36,845 nucleotides of DNA from Candidatus Angelobacter sp. Gp1-AA117 (GTDB lineage Bacteria; Acidobacteriota; Terriglobia; Terriglobales; Acidobacteriaceae), in NCBI GenBank assembly GCA_003223515.1, contig QHVI01000051.1, positions 1 to 36,845 on the forward strand, in the 5' to 3' direction. Position 1 is the first letter of the stretch. Each line of letters begins with the position of its first letter. The notes under the pieces were generated by a model. The model was not told the origin of the DNA, did no database searches, and saw only the letters and a program-made list of their open reading frames with translations. Both the position numbers and the translations under genes were made by a program. Positions 6,038-18,873 of this stretch are shown piece by piece.

Positions 6038-6844
6038 TCAAATTAATGATTGTGGAACACCTCCTTCCGGGCGCAGCCACGGGACTTGCCAGAAGCCGCA
6101 AGCTTTGAGATTTTCAAGCGTGGTGAAATAAAAGAGCTTGGATGTAAGTTTTCCAACAGCTTCCCTCAGTGACTGCATCCGGCGCTCCGACGAAGTTACG
6201 ACCAAAACTCCGAAGCGTGAATGCCCAAAGAGGCGTTCAAATTCACCTGTGGCGGCAAAGCCCAGGTACTCTTTTACCTTTTTATTCCATACCGGGATGC
6301 CTTCTGTCCCCAGATCGACCTCAAGGTACATCGGGCGAATGGCTTCGTTTGAATGAATTTCAAAATATGCATCGGGGATAACAGGGCAGGCGGGGGAAAG
6401 TGCTTGTTTGAATACCTGCCAGCGCCTTACCTCGCCGCCCTCTATATATGAATGTGCGGCGCAGTAGACCTCATTGATTGCAAGCTGGTGAGCAACAAAT
6501 TTGTCCCCAATCAGGAAGGAATCTGAAGGACGGCTGAGTCCATTGGGAACCGTTCCTATGAGTTCTGCCCCTTTCTTGGAGAGACAGTAAATAGCTTTTT
6601 TGCCGCCCAGGGTGCTTACAAAAAAGAACCGTTTTAGGATTCCTGCGCGGCTGAGTTTCAAAAGGCGCGTGTTAACCCGGCTCGTGGAATTAAAGCCGCA
6701 AATCTTAGCGGTCTGGTTTCGGTCTATGATCCGGAGCAGGGACAGGGCGCGAAGGAGTTCCAAATCCCGCTTCTGCAAAATCAGGTGTACCTCACTGCCA
6801 GTCTTCGAGGTTTTGGCTGGTGGTCTGTTTTGGAGTTCTTGCAT
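6038..6844 (-). CDS. Replication-relaxation family protein
   Basis: This 268-residue protein fits the replication-relaxation family: an N-terminal winged helix (LLRALSLLRIIDRNQTAKICGFNSTSRVNTRLLKLSRAGILKRF), then a domain with PDAYFEI and MYLEVDLGTE, a D...E-x-D pattern reminiscent of nuclease folds, then HSRFGVLVVTSSERRMQSL. The family occurs on plasmids and integrative elements and has been linked to plasmid replication and relaxation. Its biochemistry is poorly known. The start overlaps the end of the coupling-ATPase gene by 53 bp, and there is no clear ribosome site, so it depends on coupling. The pairing with a TraG-type ATPase is a recurring arrangement. Confidence 0.75.
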   Translation of the reverse strand: MQELQNRPPAKTSKTGSEVHLILQKRDLELLRALSLLRIIDRNQTAKICGFNSTSRVNTRLLKLSRAGILKRFFFVSTLGGKKAIYCLSKKGAELIGTVPNGLSRPSDSFLIGDKFVAHQLAINEVYCAAHSYIEGGEVRRWQVFKQALSPACPVIPDAYFEIHSNEAIRPMYLEVDLGTEGIPVWNKKVKEYLGFAATGEFERLFGHSRFGVLVVTSSERRMQSLREAVGKLTSKLFYFTTLENLKACGFWQVPWLRPEGGVPQSLI

Positions 6845-8147
6845 TGATTTCGGCTTCGATGTCCTCCCGAAGTTTTCCGAATCGCATTAATGATCGGTGG
6901 ACAAGGTCGGAAACTTGAACATTTTGCTTCCTGATGGTCGGCACACAGACCTCACGGCGGAAGTCACCGAGCCGGACGACGAAATGCCGGGGTTCAAGAG
7001 TCGTGAGCTTTCTTGCAAGCGATTTCTCGCCGTCAAGTGCGCGGGCCATGAAAGGCGCATCTTCTGCGGAAAGCTGAAAACAGAGATTCGTCCCGACGGA
7101 GAGGAGACTCGACCTCATAGCAGGGGCAAGCTGGTTTAAGAACTGGTTTGCAGAAACTACAGAGACACCGAACTTACGGGCCTCGGCAAGAAGCGTTCCA
7201 AAGGCATCATCCACGGCAATGAGGTTCGGGAGTTCGTCTGCATAAATCGTGAAGAGATTTCTTCTGTGGCGGGAGAAAATCGAGCTTTTCAGCTTTGCAA
7301 GAAACAGGCCTGCAAACGTCAGGGCATTTTCGCCGAGTCGCCCTTTGGGGAGATCTAAAAGTATCCAGTGCCCTTCGTCCAGCGCTTCCCGTATCGAGTA
7401 CGAAGATTTCTGCTGGCCGATGACATGCCGAAGTCCCGGATCAAGCGTGAAAGCGGTCACCTTGTTCAAGACTGCTTCGCGCATGACGCTCTGCATCGCT
7501 TCTGAGGCCCGATCATAGCGGTCTTCAAAATATCTCTTCACTTCGGGATTGGTGACTCGCCTAAGAAGCGTTGATCGATAGACGGAGTTCGTCAGAAACG
7601 GAGAGACTTCAAGAAACGTCAGATTGTTTTCGGAAAGCACCCAAAGAGCATTTCTCAGGAGCTCTTCAGTCCTGGCACCGAAATGGTCGAGATTCCATCG
7701 GTGGCGAAGCAGCGTGACAATCTCTGAAATGAGGGCAGCACGGCTTTGGTCCTCCGAACATTCCAGAGGATTGAGTCCAAGAGCATACTTAGGACTAGAA
7801 AGGGTCATTAATCGCGTTCTCCATGAGAATTGTTTTTTTAATGCATGCTCTCGGGCGCAAATCTCGGAAAGTACAAAGGGGACAAGGTCACCATGAAGAT
7901 CGATACAGACAAACCCTAGTCCCTTCTTAATATCCTGGGCCATCAAATGCCGAAGCAGGCTGCTCTTGCCGGTTCCAGTCTTTCCGACAATGGCAATGTG
8001 CTCAGGCCGCCTCTCTTCCGGCAGGATGACCTCTCGTTTGGAGACCACGCCGTCTTTCACTTGAAAACCCAGGCTCACGCCGGCAGGGGGCGCTCTGCGC
8101 AGTAATTTGTTCCAGATCAGAACGATGAGTTTTTCAAAAAGAGCCAA
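6792..8147 (-). CDS. TraG/VirD4-type DNA-transfer ATPase
   Basis: This 451-residue P-loop ATPase is of the type IV coupling-protein/VirB4-like superfamily. Walker A is GKTGTGKS (55-62), followed by LRHLMAQDIKKGLGFVCIDL; Walker B is FTIYADELPNL (about residue 300). ARKFGVSVVSANQFLNQL matches the conserved region after Walker B. A short hydrophobic stretch at the N-terminus (LIVLIWNKLL) could touch the membrane, but there is no full two-helix anchor as in VirD4. Such enzymes pump DNA during conjugation or mobilisation. The start is TTG, 10 bp after the methylase gene. No other secretion gene is present, so the element would rely on a helper system or use the ATPase differently. Confidence 0.82.
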   Translation of the reverse strand: MALFEKLIVLIWNKLLRRAPPAGVSLGFQVKDGVVSKREVILPEERRPEHIAIVGKTGTGKSSLLRHLMAQDIKKGLGFVCIDLHGDLVPFVLSEICAREHALKKQFSWRTRLMTLSSPKYALGLNPLECSEDQSRAALISEIVTLLRHRWNLDHFGARTEELLRNALWVLSENNLTFLEVSPFLTNSVYRSTLLRRVTNPEVKRYFEDRYDRASEAMQSVMREAVLNKVTAFTLDPGLRHVIGQQKSSYSIREALDEGHWILLDLPKGRLGENALTFAGLFLAKLKSSIFSRHRRNLFTIYADELPNLIAVDDAFGTLLAEARKFGVSVVSANQFLNQLAPAMRSSLLSVGTNLCFQLSAEDAPFMARALDGEKSLARKLTTLEPRHFVVRLGDFRREVCVPTIRKQNVQVSDLVHRSLMRFGKLREDIEAEINARTPKQTTSQNLEDWQ

Positions 8148-13150: not shown

Positions 13151-15472
13151 ATGAAGCAAACCTTTTTTAAAATTGGCGAAGAAAAAACTGGCGTCGAAGT
13201 TCGGATCAGCTACCGAATCATTCAATTGTTTTCAGAAGGTCTTTATGCCAGTCCTCACAAGGCGATCGAAGAATTAGTCTCAAATTCGTTTGATGCCGGT
13301 GCATCAAATGTCCATGTGATCCTCTCACCTGACCTAACGGAACAGGACGCCACGATTGCCGTACTCGATGACGGTTTTGGCATGGACGAAAAAGGTCTGA
13401 CTGACCATTGGCTCATTGGAGTCAGCAGAAAACGCTCGGAGGGGTTTTTAGGCCCCAAAGGGCGCAAGCAGATCGGAAAGTTCGGTATTGGCAAGCTGGC
13501 GACATATGTCCTTTCTCGCCGCCTCACGCATATTTGCAAAGTTGGCTCCGTTTATTACTCAATCAGCATGGATTACACCAAAATTCCGGCTGGTGAGGGC
13601 GGGGGAATTCACACTGAAGAACGGGTAATCTTGCCGTTACGAACCCTTACAGAAAAAGAAGCCAGACAAGCTGTTGCCTCATGGATCGAAGGAAATAAGC
13701 CAGGATATAAAGCCATAAAATTATTTGGAAAAGGGGCGGCGCGAACATGGACAATTGCCATCATGTCCAGTTTGAAAGATATGGCATTAGAAATCCAGAA
13801 GGGACGACTTCGCTGGATTCTACAAACGGCCATGCCGCTAAGAGATGATTTTAATTTGTTTTTAGACGGAGAAAAGATACCGCCAGCGAAATTGTCCGCG
13901 AGTAAGGTTGGGCATTGGATTCTTGGCAAAGATCTAATAAAGCTCCCCAAGCCGGCACCTGAGTTGAAGATTTCCGGAAATAGTCGCGCATCCAAAGAAA
14001 GTCGTCATGGTTTGTCAGAACGCCAACTGGGACGAATTACTGGATATGTGGAAGTCTTCGAAGATCCTCTCGACACTGGAAAATCAATCGGAATCGAGAG
14101 GAGTCATGGATTCTTTGTTTATGTGCGAGGACGTTTGGTCAATATTGATGATCCCGGTTTTGGCATCAGCAGAAATCTCCTACGTCATGGCACATTTTCA
14201 CGATTTCGGATGGTCGTGCATATTGACAGCCTTGACGAGGAACTGCGGTCGTCCCGCGAGACTGTGCGCGCGGGCGTTCTGACCACGATTGCACAGAATG
14301 TTTTGCATGGCGCATTCAATCATGCCCGAGTTGCGTTGGAAAAGCACGAAGCGAAAGTTTCTGCCGGCCAGCAGATCTCAAGTCGGGTTGCTGGCAGTCC
14401 AGGAAGTCTAACTCGACGTCCCATCATCGGCTTGGTGCGTGGGGCTCTCGAGGGGAAAATCAGCCCGAAGGGTGTTAGCTACCCGCAAAACCTCACGAAA
14501 CAGGGGAAAGAGGTTTTTCTCGATGAGTTAACCGCCCGAGCGGAGAGTGAGCAAGGGATCGTTCGGGACGTGCAACTCGTGGAAAGGTCTCAAGACGAAG
14601 GAATCGCTATACTGGACGTGGAATCCGGAACTCTTGAAATCAATAGTCTTCATCCCTTCGTTGCATATTTCTTGGACGAGTATGAAGACAAGAAACGCAG
14701 TTTACCGTTGGAGTTGCTTGCTATGTCAGAGGTCCTGCTCGAAGCGCATCTCTACGAAATTGGGCTGGACAGCGACGACATACATGATGTTCTGTCTCGC
14801 CGTGATGAAGTTTTGCGTTTTCTCGCACGTTCAACAGGAAAACGCAATGCGAGAACGATAGCCCAAGACCTCATTGATGCTGCAGGCGACAAAAATGCAC
14901 TGGAGGCGGCACTGGTCAGCGTATTCGATAGTATGAATTTCGATGCCGTTCCGCTGGGCGGACCTAAAAAGCCGGACGGTTTGGCTGCTGCGCGATTAGC
15001 AGGTGATTCGAAGGGCAAGCCTCATCGTTATAAGGTCAGCTTGGAGGCAAAGAGCAAAGAAAAGGAAGGCGCAAAAGTATCCGCCAAGACAGTCGGCGTC
15101 TCGGGCATCGCTAGGCAGCGTGATGATTACGAATGTGACCATGCGGCGGTTGTTGGCCCGGACTTTCCCACAAGTGACGGTGAGCTGTCTGCATTGGTAA
15201 AAGAAATTAAAAAAGATCATAAAGCGTCGGTAGTGGGTCATTTTCGATTTCCACAGGTCGGGAATAAGCAAGCCAACCCTAACCGCGAATCCAGCATCTC
15301 ACAACTGATATGCCCACGACTAAGTTCCCTGAGACAGGCGATACCGTGCCGGAGACAGGCATTTACCGTGCTGTGCATGTTCACCATAAGCTGCCAAAAG
15401 AAGTGGCACTGCTCAAGGACGAACATTTCCCCAGATGCCAAAAATGCAATAAGCCTGTTCTCTTTGATTTGA
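13151..15472 (+). CDS. GHKL (MORC-like) ATPase with PD-(D/E)XK nuclease, interrupted by an IS1-family element
   Basis: The first 692 residues are native; the last 81 are read from the inserted element. The N-terminus is a GHKL ATPase: N box E41...N45..D48 (EELVSNSFDAG), G1 box DDGFGM (73-78), G2 box GKFGIGK (109-115). A transducer-like middle follows, with a conserved arginine-rich segment (EELRSSRETVR). The region PDGLAAAR...YKVSLEAKSKEK (about 607-637) fits a PD-(D/E)XK nuclease core (D ... ExK). Iyer and colleagues described such MORC-type ATPases in restriction systems with Z1 helicases and methylases. The missing 154 C-terminal codons lie at 18411-18873. The truncated product keeps ATPase and nuclease motifs; whether it is active is unknown. 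Confidence 0.85.
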   Translation: MKQTFFKIGEEKTGVEVRISYRIIQLFSEGLYASPHKAIEELVSNSFDAGASNVHVILSPDLTEQDATIAVLDDGFGMDEKGLTDHWLIGVSRKRSEGFLGPKGRKQIGKFGIGKLATYVLSRRLTHICKVGSVYYSISMDYTKIPAGEGGGIHTEERVILPLRTLTEKEARQAVASWIEGNKPGYKAIKLFGKGAARTWTIAIMSSLKDMALEIQKGRLRWILQTAMPLRDDFNLFLDGEKIPPAKLSASKVGHWILGKDLIKLPKPAPELKISGNSRASKESRHGLSERQLGRITGYVEVFEDPLDTGKSIGIERSHGFFVYVRGRLVNIDDPGFGISRNLLRHGTFSRFRMVVHIDSLDEELRSSRETVRAGVLTTIAQNVLHGAFNHARVALEKHEAKVSAGQQISSRVAGSPGSLTRRPIIGLVRGALEGKISPKGVSYPQNLTKQGKEVFLDELTARAESEQGIVRDVQLVERSQDEGIAILDVESGTLEINSLHPFVAYFLDEYEDKKRSLPLELLAMSEVLLEAHLYEIGLDSDDIHDVLSRRDEVLRFLARSTGKRNARTIAQDLIDAAGDKNALEAALVSVFDSMNFDAVPLGGPKKPDGLAAARLAGDSKGKPHRYKVSLEAKSKEKEGAKVSAKTVGVSGIARQRDDYECDHAAVVGPDFPTSDGELSALVKEIKKDHKASVVGHFRFPQVGNKQANPNRESSISQLICPRLSSLRQAIPCRRQAFTVLCMFTISCQKKWHCSRTNISPDAKNAISLFSLI
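15221..15257 (+). repeat. Left end of the IS1-family element: target duplication plus IR-L
   Basis: The 8 bp AAAGCGTC (15221-15228) is the target duplication, repeated at 18403-18410. From 15229 begins the terminal inverted repeat GGTAGTGGGTCATTTT..., 29 bp that match the right end at 26 positions. A GG start with TG at bases 6-7 agrees with IS1-family ends as I remember them, and an 8 bp duplication is within the family's 8-10 bp range. Confidence 0.88.
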
Positions 15473-15564
15473 TTCATGCGGCTGCGGATATTTTCGGGCA
15501 TCACATCTTCCGCATTTACGAACTGCCCGTGATCGAAGAGGCAAAAGCGGAGAAAGCTGGTTAG
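15310..15564 (+). CDS. Small CxxC protein, passenger of the IS1-family element
   Basis: This 84-residue protein reads FPETGDTVPETGIYRAVHVHHKLPKEVALLKDEHFPRCQKCNKPVLFDLIHA, then a strand-rich tail. One CxxC pair (CQKC) and several histidines suggest a small metal-binding protein. A PETG segment occurs twice in similar form, reflecting a short DNA repeat GAGACAGGC. It recalls YjzC-like small proteins, but I am not certain. It lies between the left inverted repeat and the convergent transposase gene, whose end it overlaps by 4 bp. The overlapping frame of the truncated ATPase gene at 15310-15472 is its shadow. Confidence 0.65.
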   Translation: MPTTKFPETGDTVPETGIYRAVHVHHKLPKEVALLKDEHFPRCQKCNKPVLFDLIHAAADIFGHHIFRIYELPVIEEAKAEKAG

Positions 15565-16466
15565 GCTTTCACGTTCTCCCGTGACAGTGCTTTCAGCAAC
15601 ATTTCTTTTTCAGTCTCACGCACTCTGGACACTGCTTTCTTTGGCGCTACCAGATTGCAGATTTCTTCGATGCTCCACACATGATCTGTAAGGCCAGCTT
15701 CCATGCAAGGCGTTACGCGCAACGTCTGATGAACACGCCCGAAGTTGTAATACACGAAATAGAGCGCCACTGCATGGCAATGGTTCTGTACCTTTTTGCT
15801 GAATCCGTTTGTTAGGCGAGTGAAGCGCCTCATGCCCATCCGCATTGAAAGATTCTGACGTTCAACATAGGACGTGCTTACATGCTTTGGGTCTGGATTG
15901 CCGCTCACAACTTTCATGTCACAGCCGATGCATTTAGCGGGTGAGTATTTCCGCTGTTCATCATCTGACGGTGAGCCGTAAAGCTTCTGTAACACAGCGT
16001 AATCAATGTCAGCGCCGAATGCATCCTCTACTGCGCTCAAGTACGCCTTATGGCCATCTGTGGTGATCTGGACGCGATTCTTAATCCGGTCAGCACAATC
16101 TTGCATGAACTCGTGCGCCCAACCTGCGTCACGTCCGCCGACCAGATACGAGACACACAGCTTCGTGTCTGCATCAATGGCCGTCCATGTCCAAGTGTCG
16201 CCCCATCCTTCGGCTTTCTTTTCGGCTTTAGTGTTCTTTGCTTTGGAACCAACAAAGCTCCAAATTTCATCGCACTGCAAACGGCGTACTTTCACATTGC
16301 GAACGGTGCGGTCATGGAACTCAGCGCAAGCCTCACCCAACTCTTCCAGCAGCTTGATTACGGCACCCTTGGAACGTCCGGTCATCCGGCAGGTAGACCT
16401 GATGGAGTTTCCCTCGACTAAGGCCCGTACAATCTGTGTTCGTTCGGCATTGCTTAGGCTGTTCAT
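15561..16466 (-). CDS. IS1-family (DDE) transposase
   Basis: This 301-residue transposase starts with a helix-turn-helix region (ERTQIVRALVEGNSIRSTCRMTGRSKGAVIKLL), then carries a DDE-type core: D in LQCDEIWSFV, D in TTDGHKAYL and E in STSYVERQN. An additional AIDADTKLCVSYLVG strand and a cysteine pair (CIGCDMKV) are typical of the longer IS1-like group. The start at 16466 is preferred because the homologous N-terminal block begins there; a longer frame runs from 16502. The gene is intact, so the element could still be mobile. It needs no frameshift, unlike classical IS1. Confidence 0.9.
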   Translation of the reverse strand: MNSLSNAERTQIVRALVEGNSIRSTCRMTGRSKGAVIKLLEELGEACAEFHDRTVRNVKVRRLQCDEIWSFVGSKAKNTKAEKKAEGWGDTWTWTAIDADTKLCVSYLVGGRDAGWAHEFMQDCADRIKNRVQITTDGHKAYLSAVEDAFGADIDYAVLQKLYGSPSDDEQRKYSPAKCIGCDMKVVSGNPDPKHVSTSYVERQNLSMRMGMRRFTRLTNGFSKKVQNHCHAVALYFVYYNFGRVHQTLRVTPCMEAGLTDHVWSIEEICNLVAPKKAVSRVRETEKEMLLKALSRENVKA

Positions 16467-16546
16467 AATGACCATTATGCTTGAGAGAATAAATTGTGTC
16501 AAGCATTTTGTGCATTTCGCTTGAAGTCCATGCTGAAACGTGCTAA

Positions 16547-16602
16547 TTTCTCTCTGTGGCTGTGATCGTGAGCACGCTCACGATCACAGCCACAGAGAGA
16601 AA
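16547..16602. repeat. Perfect 56 bp palindrome (27 bp arms, 2 bp centre)
   Basis: The arm TTTCTCTCTGTGGCTGTGAT... (16547-16573) is repeated exactly inverted at 16576-16602 around AC. It stands about 80 bp upstream of the transposase start and 164 bp before the first rightward passenger gene, inside the promoter zone of both. There is no T run on either side, so it is not an ordinary terminator. Confidence 0.95.
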
Positions 16603-16765
16603 ATCCCCCAATTGGGTGCCTATTCCGGGTTGACAAGACAGGCACGAACGGGCAAAACTTTGTGGTCTAACCTACGTCTAATGGAGAGAGGGGTAGGATG
16701 GATTTAAACTTCAGCGCCGTTCCTACCGATATTATCAATTTGAGAACCGACCTAGAGGTATCATC

Positions 16766-17233
16766 ATGGCCACTATAGCTCTTCCAATTCAGCAAATAGA
16801 GCAATCTGTACGTGTGGCTCATAAAGCAACAGAATGGGTCACGTCTTGCTCAAGATCGCAAACAGCAGATGTACCGATGGTTTTAAAGGTGGCTGGTAAG
16901 ACCATCTGGCTAAAGTATCGCTTTTCCTGCTTATCCAAACTCGAAGATAAGCTAATCGCCCACCTGACAGACCACGACTTCAGCGAACTAAATGCCGCCG
17001 ATTTGGTGGAAACAGCAGTGTCTATTGAGAATCTTGTTGCCATGCAAAGAGACATTCTTAATGATGTGCATGAGCTAGGGACAGAAATTCGCGTCTGGTG
17101 GAAGCGCTCGATAGAGAAACTGACCGAACAAACCGAACATCTTGAATCAATAGCCGAATCCTTCCGTTTTGCTGCTGATCCCGAAGCTACAGCGCTTTTA
17201 GCTTTGGCAGCCGAGCATCTAGCTGTAAGATAA
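16766..17233 (+). CDS. Hypothetical passenger protein 1
   Basis: This 155-residue protein is mostly helical, with an N-terminal region containing short strands (PMVLKVAGKTIWLKYRFSCLSKLEDKLIAHLTDHDF) and long helices after it (NLVAMQRDILNDVHELGTEIRVWWKRSIEKLTEQTEHLESIAESF), probably a coiled coil. No catalytic motif is visible. AGAGGT precedes the ATG at normal spacing. Its stop codon lies in the left arm of a hairpin that separates it from the next gene on the same strand. The pair may form a two-gene unit such as a toxin-antitoxin module, but neither product matches a family I know. Confidence 0.65.
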   Translation: MATIALPIQQIEQSVRVAHKATEWVTSCSRSQTADVPMVLKVAGKTIWLKYRFSCLSKLEDKLIAHLTDHDFSELNAADLVETAVSIENLVAMQRDILNDVHELGTEIRVWWKRSIEKLTEQTEHLESIAESFRFAADPEATALLALAAEHLAVR

Positions 17234-17264
17234 GTCTCTTAGTCCTACAGGGACGAGAGACTTA
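17231..17264 (+). promoter_or_regulatory. Hairpin joining two passenger genes
   Basis: TAAGTCTC (17231-17238) pairs with GAGACTTA (17257-17264), with an inner GTCC/GGAC stem. The structure includes the stop codon of the first gene, ends four bases before the TTG start of the second, and hides its only purine-rich (GAGAG) segment. This could make translation of the second gene depend on the first. Confidence 0.55.
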
Positions 17265-17267
17265 TCT

Positions 17268-17789
17268 TTGGCACGTTGCAAACTTGAAATAGACAATCCT
17301 AAATTCCTTGATTCCATTGGTGGAGACCAAGCGGACAAGTCTCTACTGCAAGGCTTGAAGGAACTCCAAGCGAAACTCGCCAAAGATCATAGGCTCTCTA
17401 CTTTTGTTAACCATCCAATGAAAGGTCATCCAGACCTACAAAACAGAATCTGGAAGTGGGATTTTGCGCCGGAAGGTGACACCAGTTCTACTCGTAAGGG
17501 ATGGCGAATATTTGCCTACGTAGAGAATCCCAAAGCAGAGGAACCAATTCCAGCAACACCGTTCTATTTTTATGAGAAACCAGGGCCGAGCGGTAATCCC
17601 GTTCCGCACATAGCGGAAGCACTAAAGAGATTTCTGAGGCGAACGATTCAGGTCAGGGCAGATGATAGATTCAAGCGCCAATACGATGGCGACAAAATAA
17701 TTTCTATTTGTTACGAGTGTTTCGATACGACGATCTCTACGGATATGCAAGAAATAGAAATACACGAATCAACGCATGAATGCTCATGA
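17268..17789 (+). CDS. Hypothetical passenger protein 2
   Basis: This 173-residue protein has an N-terminal helical part (LLQGLKELQAKLAKDHRLSTFVNHPMKGHPDLQNRIWKWDF), then a strand-rich part (TRKGWRIFAYVENP, TPFYFYEKPGPSGNP), then a helix (IAEALKRFLRRTIQVR) and a C-terminal CYECFDTTISTDMQEIEI. Compact size, basic helix and RKGWRIFAYV strand are vaguely RelE-like, but no catalytic set can be named. The only start is TTG, directly after the hairpin at 17231-17264. Convergent overlap of 6 bp with the next leftward gene. Confidence 0.65.
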   Translation: MARCKLEIDNPKFLDSIGGDQADKSLLQGLKELQAKLAKDHRLSTFVNHPMKGHPDLQNRIWKWDFAPEGDTSSTRKGWRIFAYVENPKAEEPIPATPFYFYEKPGPSGNPVPHIAEALKRFLRRTIQVRADDRFKRQYDGDKIISICYECFDTTISTDMQEIEIHESTHECS

Positions 17790-18023
17790 CCAGCGAGCTT
17801 TGGCGGCCTTTTTGGCTATGGCTCGGCGCTTCTCCGTGGAAAGGGCTTCGGCTCTAGCGCGACCGCCTTTCTTGCCCCCTAACCGCCCCCGTTCAATAGC
17901 TTTGGGGTTCTTACCTGCATTGGGGTCTTCCAAAGGCTGGCCGTTTAACTGCTCGCCGATTGCCTGTTCGACAACTCGGCGAGCAACCATCATGAAATCG
18001 TGTTCTTTGGGGTGTTTCGACAT
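17784..18023 (-). CDS. Small basic protein with GGKKGG-type DNA-binding repeat
   Basis: This 79-residue protein ends in ERGRLGGKKGGRARAEALS and EKRRAIAKKAAKARW, the glycine-lysine-alanine motif found in many short, histone H1-like or Alu-type bacterial proteins, which probably bind nucleic acid. The N-terminal half is helical (MMVARRVVEQAIGEQLNG). It is 17 bp downstream of the 82-residue gene and convergent with passenger 2. It may be a nucleoid-like accessory protein of the transposon. Confidence 0.7.
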   Translation of the reverse strand: MSKHPKEHDFMMVARRVVEQAIGEQLNGQPLEDPNAGKNPKAIERGRLGGKKGGRARAEALSTEKRRAIAKKAAKARWS

Positions 18024-18040
18024 ACTGATATTTTAACCTG

Positions 18041-18289
18041 TCACACCCTCTGGACGTTGCTGCGAACTGGTTTATAGAGCTTCAGGCGTTTCTCTTCGCC
18101 ATTTGCCCAATGCGCCAAAACAGGGAATGAAATCACGCAGGGTTCAATGGTGAAAGTCAATGTGGTCTTATCCTGAAACCGGAGAGTGATTCCGTAAAAC
18201 TCATCATCGGAAGAGAGTTCCACGGCATCAATGATCTTGTCTTTGACTTCGGGGAAATCGGCGAGTTGCCTTAAACTGATGTCAGCCAT
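18041..18289 (-). CDS. Hypothetical passenger protein, 82 residues
   Basis: This small protein is mainly strands: LPQ-like start (LRQLADFPEVKDKIIDAVELSSDDEFYGITLRFQDKTTLTFTIEPCVISFPVLAHW), then a basic end (KRLKLYKPVRSNVQRV). It has a strong ribosome site (AGGAGG) before its ATG, which supports expression. The gene starts only about 85 bp inside the right inverted repeat and reads inward. No family known to me. Confidence 0.65.
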   Translation of the reverse strand: MADISLRQLADFPEVKDKIIDAVELSSDDEFYGITLRFQDKTTLTFTIEPCVISFPVLAHWANGEEKRLKLYKPVRSNVQRV

Positions 18290-18373
18290 CTTGCCTCCTA
18301 ACAGGTAATTTGGTTAGGGCTGCGTTCGTGCTAGGCACACGGGCGCTGCCCGCTTACCTTATATCCCGCTTTG

Positions 18374-18410
18374 CCTGTGGAAATTCAAAATGGCCCACTA
18401 CCAAAGCGTC
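18374..18410 (-). repeat. Right end of the IS1-family element: IR-R plus target duplication
   Basis: Positions 18374-18402 read on the - strand start GGTAGTGGGCCATTTT and match the left end at 26 of 29 bases; a further CGGGA-ATAAG block follows on both sides with a small offset. The second AAAGCGTC copy is at 18403-18410, after which the interrupted ATPase-nuclease gene resumes in frame. Confidence 0.88.
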
Positions 18411-18873
18411 TGGCAAAACAATCACTTTAATCCGAATTGTGGATTTGGCCCGTCTTGTTCGATTAGTTCCCCTTAAGAGACTTGGACTCGATCGGTTACG
18501 CGAACTTTTTGACAGCTGCATCACACCTGAAGAAGTAAGCACATGGGTGGATAAAATGGCTGCAGAACAAGTTCCTAAGGCACATTACCGGAGCATAATG
18601 GATGCGATTTGGGAGCTGCAAAAAGAACGGCCTGACGAAGCGGTTGAATATTCTGGTTTAGCGGTTGCTTTACAAAAGGGACCCAAGAAGCTCAATATTT
18701 CCAAAGCGGATCTTTATCAAACTTGCTTGGCGATTTCTGGACTGGCACCTGAAATGATATCTGCTAGAAAGAATTCTGTAGAGTTAAGTCAACGACCGGA
18801 TCGTGTTATGGCATTGATAGGCTCTGTAATTCGGGAATATCCTGAGGAAGAAACAACGGGATTTCAACTCTAA
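18411..18873 (+). pseudogene. Detached 3' part of the MORC-like ATPase-nuclease gene
   Basis: This segment supplies the last 154 codons of the gene begun at 13151: GKTITLIRIVDLARLVRLVPLKRLGLDRLRELF...ITPEEVSTWVDKMAAEQVPKAHYRSIMDAIWELQKERPDEAVEYSGLAVAL, a helical domain of the sort that ends such restriction endonucleases. The open frame seen from 18310 begins inside the transposon's right end and has no ribosome site, so independent expression is doubtful. The two parts together make 2541 bp, 846 residues plus stop. It ends 14 bp before the methyltransferase gene. Confidence 0.88.

Follow-up and report, generated by a model that had tools for sequence, protein, structure and literature searches.

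An IS1-related transporter element of Candidatus Angelobacter with a small KGG companion protein and an exchangeable cargo slot

Introduction

Insertion sequences (IS) of the IS1 family have ends that start with GGT(A/G)(A/G)TG and produce a target duplication of about 8-9 base pairs (bp). In IS1, two frames (insA and insB') are joined by a frameshift, and the transposase has a zinc-finger N-terminus; one-frame members are said to exist. Passenger-carrying IS, among them members of the IS1595 family, were reportedly treated by Siguier et al. in 2009. Tn3-family transposons use a transposase and a mechanism that are unrelated to those of the IS1 type. In passages of PMC7986276, IS elements with passenger genes are treated as a recognised class, the transporter IS (tIS). 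Two further sources describe varied toxin-antitoxin pairs carried by Tn3-family transposons (PMC7157771) and report the Rosmer (RmrTA) systems as phage defence (PMC10440598). Here, we analysed a 3174-bp element in a contig of Candidatus Angelobacter sp. Gp1-AA117 (assembly GCA_003223515.1, contig QHVI01000051.1, positions 1 to 36,845; this whole stretch of 36,845 nucleotides is called the window), which had been predicted to be an IS1-family transporter element with a cargo set of five passenger genes. We conclude that it very probably belongs to a widespread clade in which a transposase and a small KGG protein form the core and a cargo slot is exchanged, the slot being occupied here by the gene pair p155-p173, probably of toxin-antitoxin or abortive-infection type, together with p82 and CxxC84.

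Results

The element spans positions 15229-18402 and contains a single transposase gene. Its terminal inverted repeats (left, GGTAGTGGGTCATTTTCGATTTCCACAGG, 15229..15257, forward strand; right, 18374..18402, reverse strand) are identical at 26 of 29 bases and both begin with GGTAGTG, and it is flanked by an exact 8-bp target duplication, AAAGCGTC, at 15221..15228 and in identical form at 18403..18410. The bounds given in the original prediction were therefore exact, and its assignment to the IS1-related transporter elements is borne out by the ends, the duplication and the passengers lying inside one end pair. When the whole window was scanned with a 12-base end motif at up to two mismatches, the left-type end matched once, at 15229, and the right-type end three times, with 18402 alone near the element. 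Since no inner copies of the end motif were present, no shorter IS with the passengers outside it is delimited within the element. Convergent genes overlap inside it, KGG and p173 by 6 bases and CxxC84 and the transposase gene by 4 bases.

The element interrupts a forward-strand gene whose upstream part (13151..15220) belongs to an ATPase of the HATPase_c_3 (MutL/BbrUII-like) kind in a restriction-type locus and whose downstream part lies at 18411..18873. In a search of 297 genomes, two near-full-length matches were found outside the window's genome (L130 and L131), where the gene is one open frame of 859 and 880 codons, respectively. Both window pieces align to these proteins side by side and in one frame, the upstream piece up to residue 689 or 691, with identities for the upstream and downstream pieces of 59% and 52% to L130 and 50% and 40% to L131. 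The host gene is intact, without the element, in these two relatives, and the earlier view that it is otherwise continuous was upheld.

For comparison with relatives, the transposase was scanned against one genome per species, and the best 80 loci among the matches listed were supplemented with relatives within the genus and four plasmids of named organisms. By their titles, the loci come from Acidobacteria, Verrucomicrobia, Planctomycetes, Chloroflexi, Nitrospirae, Methylomirabilota, Omnitrophota and several proteobacterial groups; nearly all of them belong to metagenome bins, so that an individual assignment can be in error. In the first pass, ends with at least 7 of 8 bp duplicated were located for 62 of 102 loci, the window among them. 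As a control, some end pair showed such a duplication in 63 of the 102 loci at the element ends, and merely 7-9 of 102 did so when the comparison was shifted 5-30 bp outward. The working set of 82 elements consists of 59 elements from the first pass, 5 with good ends and no matching duplication and 18 added ones; three first-pass elements were swapped for longer fetches of the same place. The duplication is exact over 8 bp in 75 of the 82. Three of the four plasmids examined have an exact 8-bp duplication. Lengths range from 1766 to 6694 bp, with at least 938 bp outside the matched part of the transposase in every member, so that this clade does not fit the earlier remark that a transposase is normally all that an IS1-type element carries. 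One 6.7-kb member (L112) seemingly has a second transposase at 6413-7405, IS1595-like by eye, as well as a Fic gene and another that is protease-like. Relatives of the transposase also occur in 144 stretches on IMG/VR contigs classed as viral, some of which may be misclassified; from the best 80 of these 144 (L141-L220), 44 elements could be delimited as a second set. Phage or prophage DNA may thus be a further carrier of these elements.

The small basic protein of 79 amino acids (aa) encoded at 17784..18023 on the reverse strand, listed originally as a GGKKGG protein among the passengers, proved to be no ordinary cargo but a conserved companion of the transposase. Its profile (KGG) matched inside 74 of the 82 elements (249,525 bases) and nowhere in 518,416 bases of their flanks. 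Because the profile had been iterated on the first-pass loci, the test was repeated on loci unused for the profile, and in the IMG/VR set KGG matched inside 42 of 44 elements and 0 times in 229,035 flanking bases. Among the elements with at least 41 matched profile positions, KGG lies upstream of the transposase in 71 of 71 and on the same strand in 67 of 71, and in 52 of these 67 it starts no more than 130 nucleotides (nt) from the element end. Two of the 44 viral-set elements have no evident cargo: L199 (1365 bp, exact 8-bp duplication) consists of an intact KGG gene and the transposase gene alone, and L162 (1323 bp) has a KGG gene without its box. Among 149 genomes sampled from the phylum there are 18 near-full-length KGG matches, 13 of which lie within 4 kb of a match to a related transposase, transposase fragments counted, compared with 3 of 15 partial KGG matches. 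Distances between KGG proteins and between their transposases are correlated (r = 0.33, n = 65, 0 of 2000 permutations as high), as common descent of the hosts would also produce.

The KGG proteins have a median length of 79 aa and a net charge of +11 (n = 65). The predicted structure has three helices, with a mean predicted local distance difference test (pLDDT) score of 83 and a predicted template modelling (pTM) score of 0.39. A sequence search of the PDB gave nothing to E 1, and at E 0.1 no Pfam family was common to two of 52 members. In one plasmid record, the KGG protein is labelled 'histone H1'. A KGG-like box is also seen at the N-terminus of P63C cargo proteins (L008, L021, L080, L084, L094 and L113). 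Three members without KGG (L006, L013 and L037) have small reading frames in common, forming two clusters of 66-69 aa.

The transposase gene (15561..16502, reverse strand) is one open frame of 313 codons, corresponding to 313 aa of an IS1-like DDE transposase from the listed TTG; Met13, invariant in all 14 aligned sequences, is the likelier start. D78, D149 and E214 are also invariant in 14/14. The protein matches Pfam PF03400 (DDE_Tnp_IS1) at 31.8 bits, above the cut-off of 24.1, and NCBIfam NF033558 (IS1) at 62.3 bits, below the cut-off of 100. A pattern search of the sequence preceding the aligned part, at most 70 codons long, found an N-terminal CxxC-n-CxxC stretch in three of the 82 transposases (L114, L115 and L117, all of the window's genome) and not in the window's transposase. 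This stretch resembles the zinc finger of IS1 (InsA), and the KGG gene is missing in two of the three copies. With three cases, it is no more than hinted at that KGG could substitute for the N-terminal zinc-finger region. In the leader of the transposase gene, an inverted repeat (16547..16602) with perfect 27-bp arms around a 2-nt centre is part of a 121-nt fold of -62.3 kcal/mol (z -8.6). Stems of at least 12 bp upstream of the transposase were found in 9 of the 82 elements, the window's included, and in 0 of 246 shuffles; the leader stem was accordingly rejected as a hallmark of the family.

Outside the core, the content of the elements varies. At the DNA level, the nearest relative (L107; 83% transposase identity, 8-bp duplication) has nothing in common with the window's element beyond ends, KGG region and transposase. 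Between these common parts, its cargo matches the PDL2_B and PDL2_C profiles and resembles PD-Lambda-2, and it is unrelated to the cargo of the window. The two elements are sisters on the transposase tree (SH-aLRT, a likelihood-ratio branch support, of 98). On this tree, a quick one without a mixture model, nine changes are needed for 12 carriers of PDL2_C, nine for 10 carriers of P63C, three for three carriers of p173 and 12 for 13 carriers of helix-turn-helix (HTH)/ImmA-type genes without PDL2_C. An Ntn-hydrolase-like gene needs two changes for six carriers and so seems largely inherited. Cargo has thus been repeatedly exchanged within the clade.

The matches of the scanned cargo include PD-Lambda-2_B, RmrA, RmrT, HigB, HicA, PIN, Fic (SoFic), GmrSD (HEC-06), an AAA ATPase (HEC-04), an MmeI-like Type IIG enzyme, an N6 methylase, P63C and a Clp protease, and one plasmid relative carries an annotated RES/MbcA-ParS-Xre pair. 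The PDL2_C and HigB cargo genes had no PADLOC match. By our own profiles, library matches and annotation, a gene of toxin-antitoxin, restriction or anti-phage type is present in 34 of the 82 elements, a soft number because the HTH/ImmA profile may include some plain HTH genes and, in the viral set, also matches outside the element in 6 of the 44 loci. A P63C domain-only profile matched inside 10 of the 82 elements and outside at one locus, and inside 6 of the 44 viral-set elements, again with one locus outside.

Among the five non-transposase genes of the window's element, p155 (155 aa, 16766..17233, forward strand) and p173 (173 aa, 17268..17789, forward strand) are the only ones that recur as a cargo module. 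They occur together in L110 (G001; 2397 bp, exact duplication GAACACCC) and in L127 (G125; 3362 bp, apparently a 7-bp duplication), and a diverged pair is present in L119. In L127 the pair follows the transposase, and in the other two layouts, those of the window and L110, it runs divergently from it. The p173 of the window is closer to that of L127 (47% identity, compared with 29% for L110), whereas its transposase is closer to that of L110 (70%, compared with 63% for L127), which fits cargo exchange. All three aligned p173 homologues have invariant C-x2-C and H-x-C. Library scans returned no convincing family match for either protein. A search of 396 genomes with the p173 alignment gave the window's copy and one weak match with stops, and nothing else. 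A perfect 13-bp hairpin (17227..17268, forward strand; fold z -6.3) lies across the stop codon of p155 and the start codon of p173; it was not seen in L110 or L127. Like the genes of a type II toxin-antitoxin pair, p155 and p173 are small neighbours, read in one direction, that move together. Judged from layout and company, p155-p173 is most likely a toxin-antitoxin or abortive-infection pair, in which p155 would have the antitoxin-like and p173 the toxin-like role.

In contrast to this pair, p82 (82 aa, 18041..18289, reverse strand) and CxxC84 (84 aa, 15310..15564, forward strand) did not support the predicted travel of the passengers as a unit. The p82 gene belongs to a multicopy family of the genus, with 20 matches in the window's genome and 1, 24, 10, 7, 1 and 9 in six of eight other genomes of the genus (0 in the other two), and is absent from 148 other genomes of the phylum sample; we therefore rejected it as a second core gene. 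It is found inside five of the 82 elements, all of this genus (the window, L111, L114, L115 and L117), and in a further IS1-like locus (L116). Twelve further p82 loci of the genome (L221-L232, two weak places aside) showed no match to the window's transposase. Some of them adjoin small HTH genes. The L223 copy is within a 4369-bp stretch that has different 20-bp inverted ends (19/20) and an exact 8-bp duplication. CxxC84, with a weak YjzC-like match below the cut-off, is present at 12 places in the window's genome (up to 12 per genome in the genus), has relatives in five of the eight other genomes of the genus and was found in none of the other 82-set elements. Being multicopy in the genus, p82 and CxxC84 are probably genes captured from the host lineage.

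At 73 sites where related elements have inserted, the target shows a symmetric bias, CAA-N7-(8 bp)-N7-TTG, with p values from 4e-4 to 2e-13 at six positions, uncorrected for the positions tried. The duplication itself is also biased, with G at position 1 and C or T at position 6, counted from 0.

Discussion

We propose that the conserved unit of this clade is the one-frame DDE transposase together with the small basic KGG protein, whose gene usually shares the strand of the transposase gene and lies immediately within the more remote of the two element ends. The cargo slot, whose content is exchanged, would be located between KGG and the transposase or beyond the transposase. The transposase would cut at the GGTAGTG ends and join them with an 8-bp stagger, and KGG may bind DNA and assist or regulate transposition, perhaps replacing the N-terminal zinc-finger region, which is absent from this transposase and present in relatives encoded by its own genome. 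In the window's element, p155 would neutralise p173.

Several observations weigh against this proposal. The first pass left 40 of 102 loci below the threshold of 7 of 8 duplicated bases; these include contig-end cuts, short flanks and some loci without recognisable ends. KGG is missing in 8 of the 82 elements (6 changes on the transposase tree), and three more have only its box. Five of the 18 near-full-length KGG matches in the phylum have no transposase match within 4 kb, and many more distant IS1-like transposases in the same 149 genomes have no KGG match nearby. KGG is a mark of the window's transposase clade and not of all IS1-like elements. The fold search of the PDB with the KGG model, itself of low pTM (0.39), gave nothing to E 0.001. 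For p173, prediction gave only a low-confidence model (mean pLDDT 51.8), the protein shows no profile similarity to HigB proteins, and its PDB sequence matches below E 0.01 are just two chains, T32-15-1 and F4132-2, which are presumably designed proteins. Finally, the window's target matches the bias at 2 of 6 positions, and just 12 of the 73 sites match at 5 or 6.

The role of KGG can also be viewed differently. It could have no part in transposition and be a passenger of long standing, acting for instance in stability, in the nucleoid or in host interaction; the eight elements that do without it are in line with this, as is the box shared with P63C proteins, which may serve DNA or RNA binding in general. 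However, its position and strand are nearly fixed while the surrounding cargo changes, and it is retained in the cargo-free element of 1365 bp, so we regard a mere passenger as unlikely. For p155-p173, the alternative is a mobile module of another kind, such as a regulator with a Zn-binding effector or an anti-phage pair without toxin-antitoxin logic. The two proteins have no convincing family, and p173 has a conserved Zn-ribbon-like C-terminus, which to our knowledge is unusual among RelE-type toxins. On the other side, the sizes, the gene order, the small gap, the repeated co-travel and the many cargoes of toxin-antitoxin type fit a toxin-antitoxin pair, and a GGWRFY strand in the diverged L119 protein is by eye reminiscent of RelE/HigB toxins. 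Structure and profile tests spoke neither for nor against the toxin-antitoxin reading, and another kind of module has an appreciable chance of being right, though below even.

Two further explanations concern the element as a whole. That the five genes form one fixed cargo set, as originally proposed, is suggested by their lying together between exact ends in the window; none of the other 82-set elements has all five, however, and p82 and CxxC84 are multicopy elsewhere in the window's genome and related ones. A fixed set is hence refuted within the sampled set, and we consider it highly improbable in general. An assembly chimera or stacked insertions could mimic a single element in a draft genome of 206 contigs. 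This is hard to reconcile with one end pair, an exact duplication, host-gene homologues continuous over the junction and dozens of elements of the same plan, including those with exact 8-bp duplications on plasmids of named organisms, and we think it extremely improbable. We therefore retain the clade with a transposase-KGG core and an exchanged slot. A bolder version, with a pan-bacterial family in which KGG has assumed the DNA-binding and regulatory part of the IS1 zinc-finger region, a slot thereby opened that carries exchangeable immunity and toxin-antitoxin modules, and p155-p173 as an undescribed phage-defence pair, seems doubtful to us.

This clade may be a little-noticed vehicle by which small genes of toxin-antitoxin-like and anti-phage-like kinds spread through bacteria of soil and water that belong to several phyla. 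Particularly, the ends, the 8-bp duplication, the transposase and KGG together provide a searchable frame for spotting candidate defence modules among unknown gene pairs. The clade also raises a biochemical question, namely what role a second tiny conserved protein has beside an IS1-type transposase.

In the literature compared, which leaves much of the IS literature and ISfinder outside, we found no description of an IS1-related family in which a KGG gene is conserved. With respect to cargo, related elements carry genes matching RmrA, RmrT, PD-Lambda-2_B and HigB (PADLOC and Pfam names) and in this resemble RosmerTA, PD-Lambda-2 and HigBA, whereas p155-p173 of the window matches none of these. 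Like Tn3-family transposons, the clade carries varied toxin-antitoxin-like pairs, but here a constant KGG gene accompanies the variable pair. The element shares with the IS1 family a DDE_Tnp_IS1 domain above the Pfam cut-off, the GGTAGTG ends and the 8-bp target duplication, and the annotation 'IS1 family transposase' is given for three of the four plasmid relatives; it differs in an NCBIfam IS1 score under the cut-off and in having a one-frame transposase of about 300 aa without an N-terminal zinc finger in the window copy, and its clade has the extra conserved KGG gene and, as a rule, cargo. As in tIS, a single transposase and passengers lie within the element's own ends and one target duplication, while the clade adds a conserved companion gene and an exchangeable slot rich in toxin-antitoxin-like and anti-phage-like genes. 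In conclusion, the element is best filed as a variant form of the IS1-related transporter elements.

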